From the NCBI RefSeq assembly GCF_003269275.1, contig NZ_QLTS01000005.1:62001-126000 (forward strand): a stretch of DNA of 64,000 nucleotides, given 5' to 3'. The stretch's first letter is position 1. Every line of letters begins with the position of its first letter. Source of the DNA: Phascolarctobacterium faecium DSM 14760. Its GTDB lineage: Bacteria > Bacillota > Negativicutes > Acidaminococcales > Acidaminococcaceae. A model generated the notes under the pieces. The model saw only the letters and a program-made list of their open reading frames with translations. It was not told the DNA's origin and did no database searches. Made by a program: the position numbers and the translations under genes. Below are positions 55,047 through 64,000 of this stretch, one piece after another.

Positions 55047-55104
55047 TTCTGTATACATCTGATTCGTCAGCAGACAAAGAAAAATATTTGAAATTATACC
55101 AAAT

Positions 55105-56578: not shown

Positions 56579-57532
56579 TTATTTTTCAAATAACTGGCTG
56601 ACAGACCAGTCGTTGAAAATACGTAATACAGTTTCTGCAAGAATAGGTGCCACCGAAAGAACCTTAATTTTCGGATGTTTCTTAGCAGGAGGTAGAGGAA
56701 TAGTATTAGTAACAACCAACTCTGTAATATCTGATTGCGCAATACGGCTTAAGGCCGGATCAGTAAGAACCGGATGTGTACAGCAGGCATAAATCTCTTT
56801 GGCCCCAAATTTCTTCAAAGCCCGGGCACCTTCTGTCAAAGACCCTGCTGTATCAACCATATCATCAACTAAAATAGCAGTTTTACCTTCTACAGAACCA
56901 ATCAGATTCATTACTTCGGCTACGCCCGGTTCAGGACGACGCTTATCAATAATAGCCAGACCACAGTTCAGACGTTCAGCCATATTTCTGGCACGACTGA
57001 CACCGCCAAGATCAGGGGAAACCACAATCATATCGTCAAGATTTTTTTCTTTGATATATTCTGCCAAAATCGGACCGCCGGGCATATGGTCAAAAGGTAT
57101 ATTAAAGAAGCCTTGAATCTGAGCAGCGTGCAAATCAATAGTTACGACACGGGTAATTCCTGCCGATTCCAACAGGTCAGCCATCAACTTGGCGGTAATA
57201 GGCTCACGCCCACGGGCTTTACGGTCCTGGCGTGCATAACCGTAATAAGGTATGATTGCTGTAATATGGCTGGCAGAAGCACGTTTAAAAGCATCCGCCA
57301 TAATCAAAAGTTCCATAACGTTATCATTAACGGACGGGCCACAGGTAGGTTGCACGATGAAAATATCTTTGCCGCGCACGCTTTCATTTATCATTACTTG
57401 TACTTCGCCGTTATTAAAGCGGTTGATAACGGCATCGCCAACAGTAGTACCTAAATAAGCGGCGATCTCTCGTGCCAAATCAGGATTGGCATTACCGGAA
57501 AAAATTCTGAGTTTATTCTCATCTGACAACAT
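56579..57532 (-). CDS. prs: Ribose-phosphate pyrophosphokinase Prs
   Basis: A 317-residue PRPP synthetase. The N-terminal FSGNANPDLAREIA, the ATP-binding YYGYARQDRKARGREPITAK, and the ribose-phosphate/PRPP loop VDDMVDTAGSLTEGA are all present. It supplies PRPP for purR-controlled purine synthesis and for upp. The ATG has a GGAGGG site. It is separated from glmU by 103 nt with its own promoter. Confidence 0.97.
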   Translation of the reverse strand: MLSDENKLRIFSGNANPDLAREIAAYLGTTVGDAVINRFNNGEVQVMINESVRGKDIFIVQPTCGPSVNDNVMELLIMADAFKRASASHITAIIPYYGYARQDRKARGREPITAKLMADLLESAGITRVVTIDLHAAQIQGFFNIPFDHMPGGPILAEYIKEKNLDDMIVVSPDLGGVSRARNMAERLNCGLAIIDKRRPEPGVAEVMNLIGSVEGKTAILVDDMVDTAGSLTEGARALKKFGAKEIYACCTHPVLTDPALSRIAQSDITELVVTNTIPLPPAKKHPKIKVLSVAPILAETVLRIFNDWSVSQLFEK

Positions 57533-57635: not shown

Positions 57636-59006
57636 TCAGCCGTTGCGGTATTTTGCAGCCCAGCCTTCAATATTCTTCTGTTTCGCACGGGCAATACCCA
57701 AATCATCTCCCGGTACATCCTTAGTGATCGTAGATCCTGCTCCAATATAAGCTCCGGCACCAATTGTAACAGGAGCAACCATATTGCTGTTGCAGCCGAC
57801 AAACGCATTATCTTCAATAATAGTGCGATGTTTTTTCTTCCCGTCATAATTTACAGTGATACATCCACAGCCAATATTGACAGAACTGCCGATATCACTG
57901 TCACCGATATAACTGAGATGCGGCAGCTTGCTGCCAGTACCAACATGAGAATTTTTTACTTCCACAAAATTGCCAATCTTCACATTATCGCCAATAACAG
58001 TATCAGGGCGCAAATGCACATAAGGACCGATCACAACGTTATCCTGTACTTCGCAGTCGTGTCCATAAACAAATTGCAGTTCCGCAGTATTCCCGATTCT
58101 GACATTTGTCAACCGAACATTAGGACCAATCTGGCAATCTTCACCGATCTTCGTAGTCCCTTCCAACCAGGTATATGGATAAATAACAGTGTCCTGACCT
58201 ATTTCAACACCTTTTTCGATAAAGGTACTGGCAGGATCCATGATCGTTACACCGTCATCCATCAGTTTATTCAGAATCCGCTGACGCATAATGTTTTCTG
58301 CTTCTGCCAATTGGCGGCGAGAATTGATGCCCATGATCATATCGCTGTCAGCAGTAGCAACACCGCCGACTTTTTTACCCATTGCGTTCAATTTTGCCAG
58401 AACATCGGTCAGATAATATTCACCCTGCGCATTATCACAAGTTAAAGTAGCAAGCACCTCAAAAAGCAACGGCGCCTCTACACAATAAATTCCTGTATTG
58501 ATTTCTTTGATTGCTTTTTGTTCTAAGACAGCGTCTTTTTCTTCTACAATACCCAAAACGTTGCCGTCTGCATCGCGTATAATCCGTCCATACCCTGCTG
58601 GATCGTCCATGAAAGCAGTCAATACTGTTGCTGCGGCCTGTGACGCTACATGGCCTTCATAAAACTTTTTAAGCTCTGCTGCTTCTAATAACGGCGTATC
58701 TCCGCAAATAAGCATTACCGTACCGCAAAAATCTTTTAAAACAGCTTCCGTCTGCATCACTGCATGTCCAGTACCAAGCTGTTCAGCTTGCAAAGCCATC
58801 TGTGCCTGCTCGCCAACCATTGCTTCTACCAGTTCTGCTTCATGACCCACGACCACTACCTTCCGGGCAGCCCCTGCTGCATCAGCAGCATCAAGTACAT
58901 GCTGCAGCATAGGTTTTCCGCCAATTTTATGTAAAACCTTCGGCAACTTGGACTTCATTCTGGTTCCTTTGCCTGCCGCTAAAATAACCGCCACTAACTC
59001 TGACAT
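57636..59006 (-). CDS. glmU: Bifunctional GlmU (glucosamine-1-phosphate acetyltransferase and UDP-GlcNAc pyrophosphorylase)
   Basis: A 456-residue two-domain enzyme. The N-terminal uridyltransferase has LAAGKGTRMKSKLPKVLH and CGDTPLL; the C-terminal left-handed beta-helix acetyltransferase (from about 250) has RPDTVIGDNVKIGNFVEVKN and SYIGDSDIG. It makes UDP-GlcNAc, the shared precursor of lipid A, peptidoglycan and the wecA glycan in this window. The ATG has a GGAGGT site. Confidence 0.97.
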   Translation of the reverse strand: MSELVAVILAAGKGTRMKSKLPKVLHKIGGKPMLQHVLDAADAAGAARKVVVVGHEAELVEAMVGEQAQMALQAEQLGTGHAVMQTEAVLKDFCGTVMLICGDTPLLEAAELKKFYEGHVASQAAATVLTAFMDDPAGYGRIIRDADGNVLGIVEEKDAVLEQKAIKEINTGIYCVEAPLLFEVLATLTCDNAQGEYYLTDVLAKLNAMGKKVGGVATADSDMIMGINSRRQLAEAENIMRQRILNKLMDDGVTIMDPASTFIEKGVEIGQDTVIYPYTWLEGTTKIGEDCQIGPNVRLTNVRIGNTAELQFVYGHDCEVQDNVVIGPYVHLRPDTVIGDNVKIGNFVEVKNSHVGTGSKLPHLSYIGDSDIGSSVNIGCGCITVNYDGKKKHRTIIEDNAFVGCNSNMVAPVTIGAGAYIGAGSTITKDVPGDDLGIARAKQKNIEGWAAKYRNG

Positions 59007-59043: not shown

Positions 59044-60258
59044 TTACAGTAATTCTACTCGATAACCAGCACGACGCAAAGCCGCCACCAAAATTTCCGC
59101 ATGAGCGTGATCACGCGTTTCCAGATCCATTTCTACCTGTGTCTGACCAATAGGCAGGTTACGTCCAGCATGCTCATGATAAACATAAACGATATTAGCT
59201 TTATACTCTTCGATATACGAAACAAAACGACGCAATTCGCCGGGTCTGTCAGTCAGATGTGTCAACAGCTTAATACGACGCCCCGATTTTACCAAGCCGT
59301 TTTCAATAATCCTGGAAATCATATTTACATCAATATTACCACCGCTGATAACAGCCGCAGTTTTATCCGCGTGGGGAATATTACCATGCAGCATAGCTGC
59401 CAGTCCAATAGCACCGGCACCTTCGCTGATCATCTTCGCCCGCTCCATCATGAGCAGTATCGTCGCCGCAATATCATCGTCTTTAACTACAAAAATATCA
59501 TCAACATATTTTTGAATCAAGTCAAAAGTGATTTTACCAGGAGATTTTACAGCAATACCATCAGCAATCGTTTGTGCTTCCGGAGTTTCTACCCACTTGC
59601 CAGCATGCTTGGATAAATACATTGCCGGGGCACCACTGGCTTGAACGCCATACACTTTGACATGCGGCGCTACAGATTTAACCGCTGTGGCAATACCCGC
59701 CAAAAGACCTCCACCGCCAATAGGAACAACTATTGACCGTATATCCGGACATTGTTCTAAAATCTCCAGGCCAATCGTTCCCTGTCCTGCAATTACCGCC
59801 GGATCATCAAAAGCATGAACTAAAGTTGCACCTGTTTCCTTCTGCAGACGTACAGCCTCTGCAGAAGCCTCATCATAAACTCCACCCTTTAAGACAACCT
59901 CAGCGCCATAACCCTTTGTAGCTTCAACTTTCGCCAGCGGCGCTCCTTCAGGCATAACAATAGTTGCTTTAATACCAGCAGCCTGAGCTCCTAACGCCAC
60001 GCCCTGCGCATGATTTCCCGCCGAAGCGGCAATAACGCCATGTGCTTGCTGTTCTTTAGTTAAGGTCTGAATACAATTTGAAGCTCCACGTACTTTAAAC
60101 GATCCTGTACGCTGCATATTTTCCAACTTCAGTAGTACTTCATACCCTGCCATTTCACTAAAAATATGACTGCTTTCCAAAGGTGTTTTATGCACTACAC
60201 CTGCCAATCGTTTGGAAGCAGCTTCCACATCTTTCAAAGTTACCTGATCTTTTGTCAT
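59044..60258 (-). CDS. ilvA: Threonine ammonia-lyase IlvA with ACT domain
   Basis: A 404-residue PLP enzyme. The PLP lysine is K55 in TGSFKVRGASN, and the glycine-rich phosphate loop is IGGGGLLAG. Residues about 330-404 form an ACT-type domain (LTHLTDRPGELRRFVSYIEEYKANI). A single ACT domain is typical of the shorter, often catabolic-like form (as in many Firmicutes) and differs from the two-ACT biosynthetic form. It sits between purR and glmU, where Bacillus has yabJ and spoVG. Interestingly, YabJ-family proteins clear the reactive product of this enzyme, but no such gene is seen here. Confidence 0.92.
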   Translation of the reverse strand: MTKDQVTLKDVEAASKRLAGVVHKTPLESSHIFSEMAGYEVLLKLENMQRTGSFKVRGASNCIQTLTKEQQAHGVIAASAGNHAQGVALGAQAAGIKATIVMPEGAPLAKVEATKGYGAEVVLKGGVYDEASAEAVRLQKETGATLVHAFDDPAVIAGQGTIGLEILEQCPDIRSIVVPIGGGGLLAGIATAVKSVAPHVKVYGVQASGAPAMYLSKHAGKWVETPEAQTIADGIAVKSPGKITFDLIQKYVDDIFVVKDDDIAATILLMMERAKMISEGAGAIGLAAMLHGNIPHADKTAAVISGGNIDVNMISRIIENGLVKSGRRIKLLTHLTDRPGELRRFVSYIEEYKANIVYVYHEHAGRNLPIGQTQVEMDLETRDHAHAEILVAALRRAGYRVELL

Positions 60259-60271
60259 TTTTTACATCCCC

Positions 60272-61078
60272 TCATAACGGACTGATATCGATCTTCCGAT
60301 TTTCTGTATCAATATCCTTTAAAACAAACAACGCCGTATAATCATCAATCATTTTCTTTTCCGGCTCCTGCGTCGCAATGAAAAATGCTTTTCCTACAAC
60401 TTTGGCACCAACCTCTTCCGCCAGTTCTGCCATTCCACGTGCCGTACCGCCGGCCTTCATAAAATCATCGATCACCAAAACCCTCGCGGAACTTGGTAAA
60501 GCACGTTTCGGCAAAGCCATTGTCTGAATCTGTTTGGATGAACCGCTCACATAATTAATACTTACCGTAGAACCTTCAGTAATCTGTCCAACACGTCGGG
60601 CCATAACCACCGGAATATTAAAAGCACGAGCAACAAAAACTGCCAAAGGTATACCACGAGTTTCCACAGTCATAATGTATTCCGGCTCTAAATGCCGCAG
60701 ACGCTGAGCTATAATCTCCCCCAAACGCATTACCAGCTGCGGTTTAAACAGCAGATCTGTCATATAGATCATACCGCCTGACAATATTCTTTCTGGTTCA
60801 GCCAGCTGCAAAGCCAGCTCTGTTAAAAATTCCTCATTAGCTTTTTCGGAATGACATGGAATAAAACGCACTCCTCCGGCAGCGCCAGCCAAAGTTTCAA
60901 CTCTGCCCAAATCATAGGCTCCCAATCCGGCACGCACAGCTAAAACATCTTCACTTAAGGTCGATTTAGCAACCTCAAACTTTTTACAAAAATAAGTAAA
61001 TGAAAACAATTGATACGGATGGTCCACCAGCTGCTTTGTCAAAGCAACTACACGTTCCATACGTTTGACTCGAGCCAT
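60272..61078 (-). CDS. purR: Purine operon repressor PurR (Gram-positive type)
   Basis: A 268-residue regulator: N-terminal winged helix (about 1-75, with KKFEVAKSTLSEDVLAV) and a C-terminal phosphoribosyltransferase-like domain with the PRPP motif VLVIDDFMKAGGTARG. In Bacillus PurR senses PRPP to control purine genes. The LETRGIPLA and VSINYVSGSS segments match. I saw no PurBox-like CCGAAC sites in the intergenic gaps here. The gene is 14 nt after the nucleotidyltransferase gene. Confidence 0.95.
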   Translation of the reverse strand: MARVKRMERVVALTKQLVDHPYQLFSFTYFCKKFEVAKSTLSEDVLAVRAGLGAYDLGRVETLAGAAGGVRFIPCHSEKANEEFLTELALQLAEPERILSGGMIYMTDLLFKPQLVMRLGEIIAQRLRHLEPEYIMTVETRGIPLAVFVARAFNIPVVMARRVGQITEGSTVSINYVSGSSKQIQTMALPKRALPSSARVLVIDDFMKAGGTARGMAELAEEVGAKVVGKAFFIATQEPEKKMIDDYTALFVLKDIDTENRKIDISPL

Positions 61079-61092
61079 AGCGCCCCTCTTTT

Positions 61093-61851
61093 CTACTTGC
61101 TATTCTTAAAATATTTTTCCAGCAGCTGCCAGTCTTCTTCTTTATCCACATCCATACCGATCTCGGGATAATGCGAAACTACAGCTTTCCCGCTAAATCC
61201 CAACAACTCTGACGCCCGCAATTCTATATCTGACAGAGTCAACCTGTGCAGCAGGAATTTAAGCACAAAACCAAAACCTAACCAACCGCACAACTCCCAA
61301 GGTTTTTTGCGGCGGGCAAAAATATCTTTGGCTTTTATTACCCCGCCGGAAATAACATCAGCATTCAACAGCATCATATTTCCGCCGGTGAATCTACCTT
61401 CAGGTAAGGTAACATAAGTACGTTCGGCACCAGGAAAAGCTTTTACACAATCAGCTTCAGGAATCACAGGATAATAAGCATCTGCTTCCACAGCCTCAGT
61501 CTGCTTCAAAAAATCCTGCACGGCCGCAGAGGTCAGCAAAGGTATATCGTCACAAACAAATAAAATTTTACTGTTTGCAGGCAATAATGCAGCTGCAGCT
61601 GCAGCTGTTTCAGGCATTGAACTGGATTCCACGGCTACAAGTTCAGCACGCTGCGGCAATACTGCCGCCTCCCATTGACTTCCATCAGCCGCAACTATGA
61701 TCCTGCCGATCTGTCCGCTTTGATCCAAAGCATCAATAATATACTCTACCATCCGCCGTCCACCTAATGGAGCCAGCGCTCTGATATTAGTTCCAACGGC
61801 TTTTTGCAGCCACGGCGTTTTCCCACCGGCCAAAATAACCGCATTATACAT
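61093..61851 (-). CDS. MobA-like nucleotidyltransferase family protein
   Basis: A 252-residue NTP-transferase-fold protein of unknown substrate. The N-terminal loop ILAGGKTPWLQKAVG and the PLGGRRMVEYIIDAL segment resemble sugar-nucleotide and MobA-type transferases, and FVCDDIPLL carries the metal-binding acid. The C-terminus (YPEIGMDVDKEEDWQLLEKYF) is like that of IspD/MobA relatives. It lies inside the ispE-purR operon next to gntR, between two genes that are adjacent in Bacillus. Confidence 0.75.
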   Translation of the reverse strand: MYNAVILAGGKTPWLQKAVGTNIRALAPLGGRRMVEYIIDALDQSGQIGRIIVAADGSQWEAAVLPQRAELVAVESSSMPETAAAAAALLPANSKILFVCDDIPLLTSAAVQDFLKQTEAVEADAYYPVIPEADCVKAFPGAERTYVTLPEGRFTGGNMMLLNADVISGGVIKAKDIFARRKKPWELCGWLGFGFVLKFLLHRLTLSDIELRASELLGFSGKAVVSHYPEIGMDVDKEEDWQLLEKYFKNSK

Positions 61852-61872: not shown

Positions 61873-62571
61873 TTATTCTTTATTCTTCTTTTCATTATGA
61901 CTTTCAACCATGTCTTTGAGCAAAGTATGCTCGGCATTTTCCAGATGTATACGTGCAGCATTCTGTGCTCTTTCAACATCGCGGGCAGCAATACTGTCAA
62001 CGAGAGCGCGATGTTCTTCCATCGTATCCGCCAAACGACCCGGATACATCATCGAACGACCGCGGATAACTGTAATCTGCTCACGCAGGTTATTAATTAT
62101 ATTACGCAGTCTTTCATTACGGCTGGCCTGATATAAAACATCATGGAAAGCAATATCTACTTCAACTATTTTATCCATATTATTTTCTTCAATATGCTGG
62201 CCGATTTCTACTAAAAGCCGCTGCAATGTTTCCAATTCATCATCATTAATACGTTCTGCAGCAAGACCTGCTGCCAAAACATCCAGTGAAGTACGAATTT
62301 CATAAACCTCATTGATATCTTTAATAGAAATATCTGCTACATAAGTACCGCGCCTGGGGATCATTACAACAAAGCCTTCCAGTTCTAACTTACGGATAGC
62401 TTCGCGTACAGGAGTGCGGCTGACGCCCATTTCATCGGCCAGTTGGATTTCCATTAAACGCTCACCGGGACTAAAAGTACCATCAATGATAGCCTGACGG
62501 ATATTTTCACATACCAGTTCACGCAGAGGTTTGTAACTGTCTAGTTTAATCGGTCTAAGGTGCCCACTCAT
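61873..62571 (-). CDS. GntR-family transcriptional regulator (FadR subfamily)
   Basis: A 232-residue regulator with an N-terminal winged helix (about 15-80, MGVSRTPVREAIRKLELEGFVVMIPRRGTYV) and an all-helical FCD ligand-binding domain (about 90-220). It is 2 nt from ispE and co-transcribed with it. The inverted repeat TGTATACA occurs at both promoters of the divergent region 63438-63660 and looks like a FadR-type operator, so autoregulation is likely. The effector is unknown. Confidence 0.9.
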   Translation of the reverse strand: MSGHLRPIKLDSYKPLRELVCENIRQAIIDGTFSPGERLMEIQLADEMGVSRTPVREAIRKLELEGFVVMIPRRGTYVADISIKDINEVYEIRTSLDVLAAGLAAERINDDELETLQRLLVEIGQHIEENNMDKIVEVDIAFHDVLYQASRNERLRNIINNLREQITVIRGRSMMYPGRLADTMEEHRALVDSIAARDVERAQNAARIHLENAEHTLLKDMVESHNEKKNKE

Positions 62572-62573
62572 CT

Positions 62574-63437
62574 TCAGATCCTCTCCTTTTGTACAGTAGT
62601 AGTAACAGCAGTTTCCAGATCAAGCTCTGACAACTCTGTCAAAATTCTCTCAGTTATCTCTTTTTTCTCCGCCACAGCAAAAACTGTAGGCCCACTGCCT
62701 GACATTAAAGCACACGTTGCTCCTGCCGCCAGCATCTTCTGTTTAATCTCGGCAATGACCGGATGCGCAGGTATCGTAACGCTTTCCAAAACATTACCGC
62801 AACTCTCAAGCAGCAGTCCTGTCGCACTCTGCTCCAAAGCTTTTATAATACCGTCAATATCAGGTCTTTGATTGACCTTTTGCTGACGGAAATTACCATA
62901 AACCCAGCCAGTTGCTACTTCAAGCTTCGGCTTTGCCAATACCAAAAGTAGTTCAGGCGCTTCCGGCAATTCCGTTAATATTTCACCACGCCCCTCTGCC
63001 AGAGCTGTTCCACCTGTAATGCAAAAAGGAATATCAGAACCAAGCTCCGCCGCTAACTTTTCCAGCTCTGGCGCCGTCAAATCCAGTTGCCAGAGCCGGC
63101 TAAGTCCACGCATCACTGCTGCCGCATCACTACTACCGCCGGCAAGTCCGGCTGCTAAAAAAATTTTTTTGTTCAGTCTGATATGAACGTTCGGGATTTT
63201 ACCACAGCAACGGGCTAAAAGCTCCGCTGCCTTCCATGCCAGATTATCAGGACCGCCGGCAAGACCACTATGATCTGTTTCAACCACAAGTCCTTCACCT
63301 TCTTCAATTTCCACTGCATCGCTCAAACCAACACTCTGCATCACCATTCGTACTTCATGGTAACCATCGGAACGCTTGCCCAGCACATCCAGTCCTAAGT
63401 TTATTTTTGCATAAGCTGTTTCATATATTTTTTCCAT
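62574..63437 (-). CDS. ispE: 4-diphosphocytidyl-2-C-methyl-D-erythritol kinase IspE
   Basis: A 287-residue GHMP kinase of the MEP isoprenoid pathway, which supplies undecaprenyl carriers. Start block ETAYAKINLGLDVLGKRSDGYHEV, ATP loop AAGLAGGSSDAAAVMRG, and C-terminal MSGSGPTVFAV are present. The ATG at 63437 has a GAGG site; the 52-codon longer frame spans the promoter and is rejected. It is first in the operon ispE-gntR-nucleotidyltransferase-purR-ilvA-glmU. Confidence 0.96.
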   Translation of the reverse strand: MEKIYETAYAKINLGLDVLGKRSDGYHEVRMVMQSVGLSDAVEIEEGEGLVVETDHSGLAGGPDNLAWKAAELLARCCGKIPNVHIRLNKKIFLAAGLAGGSSDAAAVMRGLSRLWQLDLTAPELEKLAAELGSDIPFCITGGTALAEGRGEILTELPEAPELLLVLAKPKLEVATGWVYGNFRQQKVNQRPDIDGIIKALEQSATGLLLESCGNVLESVTIPAHPVIAEIKQKMLAAGATCALMSGSGPTVFAVAEKKEITERILTELSELDLETAVTTTVQKERI

Positions 63438-63459
63438 AATATAGCCTCGATTGTTTTCC

Positions 63460-63470
63460 TGTATACAATA
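63460..63470. promoter_or_regulatory. Candidate GntR operator at the ispE promoter
   Basis: The 11-mer TGTATACAATA, centred on the palindrome TGTATACA, lies 2 nt downstream of the ispE -10 box. An identical copy lies at 63620-63630. Confidence 0.55.
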
Positions 63471-63471
63471 T

Positions 63472-63500
63472 ATTTTATCTTGCTTCGCGTGTAGTCGCAA
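63472..63500 (-). promoter_or_regulatory. Sigma-70 promoter for ispE
   Basis: TTGCGA, 17 nt, TAAAAT on the minus strand, 35 nt before the ispE ATG. The remaining part of the 223-nt divergent gap is T- and A-rich, with no gene. Confidence 0.6.
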
Positions 63501-63592
63501 GATAATTCGAACATTTTTATAAATTTTTTCTGTTTTATTTGTGTTTTCAGTCTTTTTTTCAAAAATTTTACTTATTTCTATCACCCACAACA

Positions 63593-63620
63593 TTGCTTTT
63601 TTTCTAAAAAGTGCTACTAT
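63593..63620 (+). promoter_or_regulatory. Promoter for the YitT-family gene
   Basis: TTGCTT, 16 nt, TACTAT on the plus strand, 41 nt before the ATG. The -10 box runs directly into the second operator copy. Confidence 0.5.
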
Positions 63621-63630
63621 GTATACAATA
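63620..63630. promoter_or_regulatory. Candidate GntR operator at the yitT-type promoter
   Basis: Second exact copy of TGTATACAATA, overlapping the last base of the -10 box, a position suited to repression. Confidence 0.55.
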
Positions 63631-63660
63631 TTCGCAAAATTTGCACAAAGGAGCTTTTTT

Positions 63661-64000
63661 ATGCGTCAGCACTTATATCGCTATCTTATGGTCACCTTAG
63701 GCTGCGTCCTTATGGGTATTGCCATTAACGCCTTTTATATGCCCAATAAGCTCATCAGCGGTGGCATCGGCGGCGTTTCTGTTATTCTATATTATCTCAT
63801 TGGTCTGCCAATGGGCATTACCAGTCTGCTTTTAAATATACCTTTATTTGTCGCTGCCTATAAATTCATGGATCGGTCCTATATTGTCAGCGCTCTGTAT
63901 GGTATGCTTGTTTTTTCAGTTTCGCTTGATGCCTTCCATTTCTTAGCTGAAAAAGCACCTTATGTCCATGACCCCATGCTGGCCTGTATTGCAGGCGGCG
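63661..64000 (+). CDS. YitT-family membrane protein (5' part only)
   Basis: The first 113 codons are present; the gene runs off the right edge. The product begins MRQHLYRYLM, then hydrophobic helices with the family motif INAFYMPNKLISGGIGGVSVIL (about 20-42) and GLPMGITSLLLNIPLFV, which mark YitT/DUF161 proteins, whose transport role is not established. A strong AAAGGAG site lies before the ATG. It is divergent from ispE and shares an operator sequence with it, so both may answer to the GntR regulator. Confidence 0.88.
   Translation, partial: MRQHLYRYLMVTLGCVLMGIAINAFYMPNKLISGGIGGVSVILYYLIGLPMGITSLLLNIPLFVAAYKFMDRSYIVSALYGMLVFSVSLDAFHFLAEKAPYVHDPMLACIAGG

Follow-up and report, generated by a model that had tools for sequence, protein, structure and literature searches.

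We found that the 8-bp palindrome TGTATACA is probably the operator of the FadR-type GntR protein encoded beside ispE in Phascolarctobacterium faecium, and that this protein would act as a dual regulator that controls its own operon as well as glutamate synthesis, the uptake of amino acids and C4-dicarboxylates, and anaplerosis. The evidence comes from the observed positions, conservation and spacing of the sites and from the absence of another FCD protein in the genome. The features concerned in the window, a stretch of 64 kb of this genome, are collected in Table 1. All promoters here are predicted ones.

Table 1. Genes, predicted promoters and candidate operators around the ispE-yitT gap of the window.
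Feature	Position	Strand	Basis or remark
ispE, 4-diphosphocytidyl-2-C-methyl-D-erythritol kinase (operon gene 1)	62574..63437	-	TIGR00154, 256.5 bits
gntR, FadR-subfamily regulator, GntR HTH + FCD (operon gene 2)	61873..62571	-	domain profiles
MobA-like nucleotidyltransferase (operon gene 3)	61093..61851	-	PF12804; 21-bp gap
purR, pur operon repressor (operon gene 4)	60272..61078	-	TIGR01743
ilvA, threonine ammonia-lyase (operon gene 5)	59044..60258	-	TIGR01127
glmU (operon gene 6)	57636..59006	-	ORF named by sequence; order conserved in relatives
prs, probably co-transcribed	56579..57532	-	103-bp gap; ORF named by sequence; order conserved
yitT-family membrane protein gene	63661..64000	+	PF02588; extends beyond window end
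O1, candidate operator, core TGTATACA	63460..63467 (11-mer to 63470)	.	centre at about +1.5 of ispE promoter; family conservation
O2, candidate operator, core TGTATACA	63620..63627 (11-mer to 63630)	.	overlaps last base of yitT -10
ispE-gntR promoter	63472..63500	-	-35 TTGCGA 63500-63495, 17 bp, -10 TAAAAT 63477-63472; promoter scan
yitT promoter	63593..63620	+	-35 TTGCTT 63593-63598, 16 bp, extended -10 TGCTACTAT; inferred by eye

The ispE-yitT gap and the ispE operon

The sequence-only reading had placed the same 11-mer at two divergent promoters, and this was borne out. Exact copies of TGTATACAATA occur twice in the window, both on the + strand and both inside the 223 bp that separate ispE from the divergently transcribed yitT-family gene, one at the predicted start of ispE transcription and the other over the predicted yitT -10 (two more places in the window match with one mismatch). 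The O1 core starts 4 bp past the ispE -10, so that its centre falls near +1.5, and the O2 core starts at the final base of the predicted yitT -10. This extended -10 (TGC-TACTAT, 63615-63620) was read by eye and is absent from the list of the automatic promoter scan. In 20,000 dinucleotide shuffles of the gap, a single TGTATACA core appeared in 0.46%, while two cores, or two 11-mers, appeared in none. The core itself is present three times in the window, and its third copy (55050-55057) lies between convergent gene ends with no obvious promoter there.

We analyzed the conservation of both sites. Upstream of ispE, TGTATACA is found in 20 of 28 Acidaminococcaceae genomes and is the top-ranked 8-mer (shuffle mean 0.10 regions), mostly a few bases past a -10-like TAAAAT or TACAAT. 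It is missing or altered in the other eight, several of which bear near-copies such as TGGATACA or AGTATACA. Seven ispE promoters were taken from genomes in which the GntR protein has no close copy, and all of them lack the core. Outside Acidaminococcaceae hardly any ispE gene is preceded by the core, though the contact residues of GntR are unchanged there, and ispE autoregulation as a trait conserved across all Negativicutes was rejected on this ground.

On the other side of the gap, no further family genome with a divergent yitT carries an operator for it. O2 is therefore a lineage-specific addition, and regulation of yitT was discarded as a family trait; the earlier proposal of yitT as a shared target stands only for P. 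faecium, where the site does lie over the predicted -10. That O2 is a chance or recent functionless match beside a genuine ispE site seems rather unlikely: its absence from the relatives and the shuffle frequency of a single core speak for such a match, but O2 sits exactly on the predicted -10, shares the whole 11-mer with O1 and adjoins the regulator's own promoter.

The gntR gene lies 2 bp downstream of ispE and encodes both GntR and FCD domains, which confirms its earlier placement as the second gene of the ispE operon. An orthologue follows ispE in 55 of 56 named loci, the exception being a locus that ends at a contig edge, and this order spans Acidaminococcaceae, Megasphaera, Syntrophomonadaceae and Peptococcaceae. 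One record labelled Acholeplasmataceae (L077) has the Acidaminococcaceae-type yitT-ispE-gntR arrangement and a GntR protein 80% identical, so that its label is probably wrong.

The GntR protein and its predicted specificity

The GntR protein comprises 232 residues, with an N-terminal winged helix-turn-helix (PF00392, 69.6 bits against a cut-off of 27) and a full-length, all-helical C-terminal FCD domain (PF07729, 106.8 bits against 24.3). Both scores support its assignment to the FadR subfamily. None of the equivalog models inspected reaches its cut-off with this protein, and identity with E. coli FadR (NF003444, 22 bits against 189) or with PhnR (TIGR03338, 145.8 bits against 271.5) was rejected. 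A Pfam search of the 2.32-Mb genome, which is rated 100% complete, returned no second FCD protein; several relatives encode additional FCD-GntR proteins.

GntR orthologues (55 sequences) were aligned to the FadR sequence of the E. coli K-12 record. All 55 keep the base-contact residues R45, T46 and R49 of FadR, whereas every orthologue has Ile or Leu in place of Arg35 and Pro in place of Thr47. According to a survey of 2396 FadR-subfamily sites, Arg at the first specificity position strongly favours G in the TKGT half-site, and Pro at the second position avoids G/C in this subfamily (PMC4494728). The two replacements thus suggest that the protein should read TTGT, not TGGT, as in TTGTATACAA. 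This form, seen in the promoter sites, agrees with the published operator consensus (TKGT/ACMA with a GT-AC spacing of 2-3 nt), for which groups with 2-nt spacing exist (PMC4494728), and the TGTATACA core in its A/T-rich setting is close to it. The earlier remark that the core resembles FadR-subfamily operators was hence correct, the fit being to the consensus with 2-nt spacing. Moreover, D139, H143, H187 and H209, the Asp and three His of the FCD metal site, are invariant in the 55 orthologues, so that the effector of this domain is probably a carboxylate or an amino acid bound at this site.

Another transcription factor, and not the ispE-linked GntR, might bind TGTATACA, which we consider very unlikely. 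GntR orthologues do occur in families whose ispE promoter is without the site, the pairing of protein and core was made by sequence comparison, and the extra FCD-GntR proteins of relatives could share the motif. On the other hand, the core fits the FadR-subfamily consensus with 2-nt GT-AC spacing (PMC4494728), the genome has one FCD protein, throughout the family the site is found at the operon encoding the regulator, and it is lacking from the seven ispE promoters whose genomes have no close GntR copy.

Autoregulation of ispE-gntR through O1 is thus very probable, and three findings support it well: the site is conserved across the family, the genome has no other FCD-GntR, and the specificity residues suit TTGT half-sites. 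Since ispE, purR, ilvA, glmU and prs lie in one operon with gaps of 2-103 bp, autoregulation would adjust them too, unless internal promoters exist. As for the full list of co-regulated genes that had been predicted, the claim is only partly upheld, because ilvA, purR or the nucleotidyltransferase is missing at the locus in some Acidaminococcaceae relatives.

Sites at other promoters and their geometry

The genome was examined by pattern searches and in short stretches. The 11-mer TGTATACAATA has seven exact matches at six places in about 2.3 Mb, against two for the reversed word. Of the 18 distinct sites of the word TTGTATACA, 14 fall within promoter gaps; for its reversed control the figure is about 5 of 12, a small sample. 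Copies elsewhere in the genome are therefore not randomly placed, and chance or A/T-richness as an explanation was ruled out by the shuffles, the 8-mer ranking and the reversed-word control (small as its sample is). The promoters with TTGTATACA belong to genes for a TAXI-TRAP receptor, a GPR1/FUN34/YaaH-family (acetate transporter-like) protein with the divergent hydF, an aminotransferase, two agcS sodium:alanine symporters (both preceded by the core), a polar amino-acid ABC receptor, dcuC, degV, two branched-chain-type (liv) ABC receptors, pyruvate carboxylase and gltB, together with ispE and yitT. The pyruvate carboxylase promoter contains two exact cores 27 bp apart (L054, 1475 and 1502), at about -52.5 and -79.5.

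Many of these sites are also conserved. In five relatives they recur at gltB, dcuC, TAXI, agcS, liv, degV, the YaaH-family transporter and pyruvate carboxylase; genes for oxaloacetate decarboxylase, a glutamate symporter and glutamate dehydrogenase (named by eye) have sites in one or a few genomes. Among family genomes, the core is found in the promoters of gltB (glutamate synthase) in 19 of 30, including all 16 with a GltB identity of at least 72%, of dcuC in 24 of 29 and of the TAXI-TRAP receptor gene in 27 of 30, counts that are not independent because the genomes are related. The flanking sequence has diverged far more than the core across these genomes. TGTATACA is the commonest 8-mer upstream of dcuC and is tied for first upstream of gltB, with shuffle means of 0.13 and 0.22 regions, respectively. 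The contrast gene gdhA has the core in just 7 of 30 family genomes and was rejected as a core target of the regulon.

It is hardly tenable that GntR acts on its own operon and yitT only, the other copies being due to chance. The 11-mer is indeed rare, but the retention of core and spacing at gltB, dcuC and TAXI in most family genomes already contradicts such a restriction. The regulatory scope given by the sequence-only reading was right to include the regulator's own operon and too narrow elsewhere, for it missed the glutamate, amino-acid, C4 and pyruvate carboxylase targets.

The distance between operator and promoter follows a few patterns. At gltB, 15 genomes have 25 bp between operator and TATAAT, and one has 35 bp, about one helical turn more, which places the operator centre at -41.5 and -51.5, respectively; three more distant family members with the gltB core have a 53-bp gap. 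The 25-bp geometry also occurs in four other Negativicutes families (f2, f4, f23 and f3; spacing by eye), and in f3 the one-base variant TGTATACG takes the place of the core at the same distance. For dcuC, most genomes have a gap of 35-37 bp, and those in which a second overlapping GTAT box sits 7 bp on have 42-44 bp. In the P. faecium genome, five promoters have an operator centre between -50.5 and -53.5 (the count includes the second pyruvate carboxylase site, counted by eye), and the probability of five centres within this 3-bp band is about 0.005 under a uniform model. The sites near -52 are those of dcuC, agcS, amino-acid ABC genes and pyruvate carboxylase. The sites of this genome at liv, degV and yitT fit neither -41 nor -52, and at TAXI the gaps to a -35-like GCAGGA element (20-22, 28-29, 31-32 and 37-39 bp) do not all lie on one helical grid.

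Several further features were observed at these promoters. In one genus (g9), a second GTAT/ATTCTT box follows the core after 7 bp at both dcuC and gltB; counted from this box, the dcuC spacing is back to about 36 bp and that of gltB is about 46 bp. The dcuC promoters of several genomes (L262-L265) have a G+C-rich, terminator-like stem-loop with a T-run between operator and -10. Upstream of TAXI-TRAP genes (L291-L320) the operator precedes a GCAGGAwwT...GAA pair that resembles a sigma-H type promoter; in 26 genomes the GAA follows the first element at a constant distance of 18 bp. Upstream of degV (L004, about 1450-1515) the -35 and -10 of one promoter enclose the operator, and transcription from there would run into a strong terminator after some 60 bases, which might yield a small RNA or serve as an attenuator.

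A fixed spacing upstream of promoters usually signals activation, and a site over +1 signals repression. The geometry at gltB, dcuC and similar promoters thus points to activation and that at ispE to repression; binding, direction of regulation and effector are inferred throughout. GntR bound over the ispE promoter start would block RNA polymerase and so limit its own operon, and at O2 over the yitT -10 it would likewise block polymerase in P. faecium. At about -41.5 (gltB) or about -52 (dcuC, agcS, amino-acid ABC and pyruvate carboxylase genes) it would most likely recruit polymerase, and at the TAXI-TRAP gene it would do so from a greater distance.

Repression may also be exerted from an upstream site, and GntR may be a pure repressor at all sites, those at -41.5 and -52 blocking polymerase or being relieved by an inducer. 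Most studied FadR-subfamily regulators are repressors, and the gltB site is just 2 bp from the -35 box. We nevertheless regard pure repression as unlikely: it needs no phasing, whereas contact with polymerase demands it, in keeping with the fixed 25-bp gltB gap, its single extension by 10 bp and the cluster from -50.5 to -53.5.

Beyond the dual action proposed above, we tentatively suggest that GntR may be a master carbon-nitrogen regulator of Acidaminococcaceae, in the role held elsewhere by CodY or Lrp. Under this more ambitious reading, the gltB branch would be common to further Negativicutes, gltB, dcuC and TAXI-TRAP would be activated from helically phased sites, and the protein would respond to a central metabolite, for example glutamate, pyruvate or a C4 acid.

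Relation to known regulators and biological meaning

The P. faecium GntR shares with E. coli FadR the GntR helix-turn-helix with the same base-contact arginines. FadR has Arg35, a 3-nt GT-AC spacing (PMC4494728) and acyl-CoA sensing, whereas in the P. faecium protein the specificity positions are occupied by Ile and Pro, the spacing is 2 nt, the gene set is a different one, and there is an FCD domain with conserved metal-site residues. FadR represses the fad genes and activates fabA and fabB (PMC3460868), and thus provides a precedent for a dual regulator in the family. The regulators GntR, UxuR, HypR, PrpR, MdcY and HpxS likewise have GT and AC two bases apart with A/T-rich flanks (PMC4494728). 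The P. faecium protein differs from them in its link to ispE and in its sites at genes for glutamate synthase, amino-acid and C4 transport and pyruvate carboxylase. The members of that group are mostly local regulators of single catabolic pathways. CodY and Lrp are global amino-acid regulators whose protein families and motifs are unrelated to GntR; if our model is true, the scope would be alike, with amino-acid transport, glutamate synthesis and central anaplerosis.

In the open-access literature, to which the search was confined, we found neither TGTATACA with GntR and FCD nor TTGTATACAA with GntR, nor ispE with GntR and purR in a relevant context. Among the matches listed, the same literature yielded nothing relevant on a GntR regulon in these bacteria or on GntR control of gltB, and no description of the regulation of nitrogen and C4-acid metabolism in Acidaminococcaceae. 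The protein family, the operator type and dual action are already known, while that literature seems to contain no account of the regulon, of its conserved geometry or of its link with ispE.

Phascolarctobacterium and other Acidaminococcaceae are common anaerobes of the gut, and a defined operator, a target set and two promoter geometries together make a directly testable model of their nitrogen and C4-acid regulation. The model also offers a reason why the GntR gene is kept beside ispE from Negativicutes to Clostridia, and it suggests a FadR-type activator and repressor outside fatty acid metabolism.
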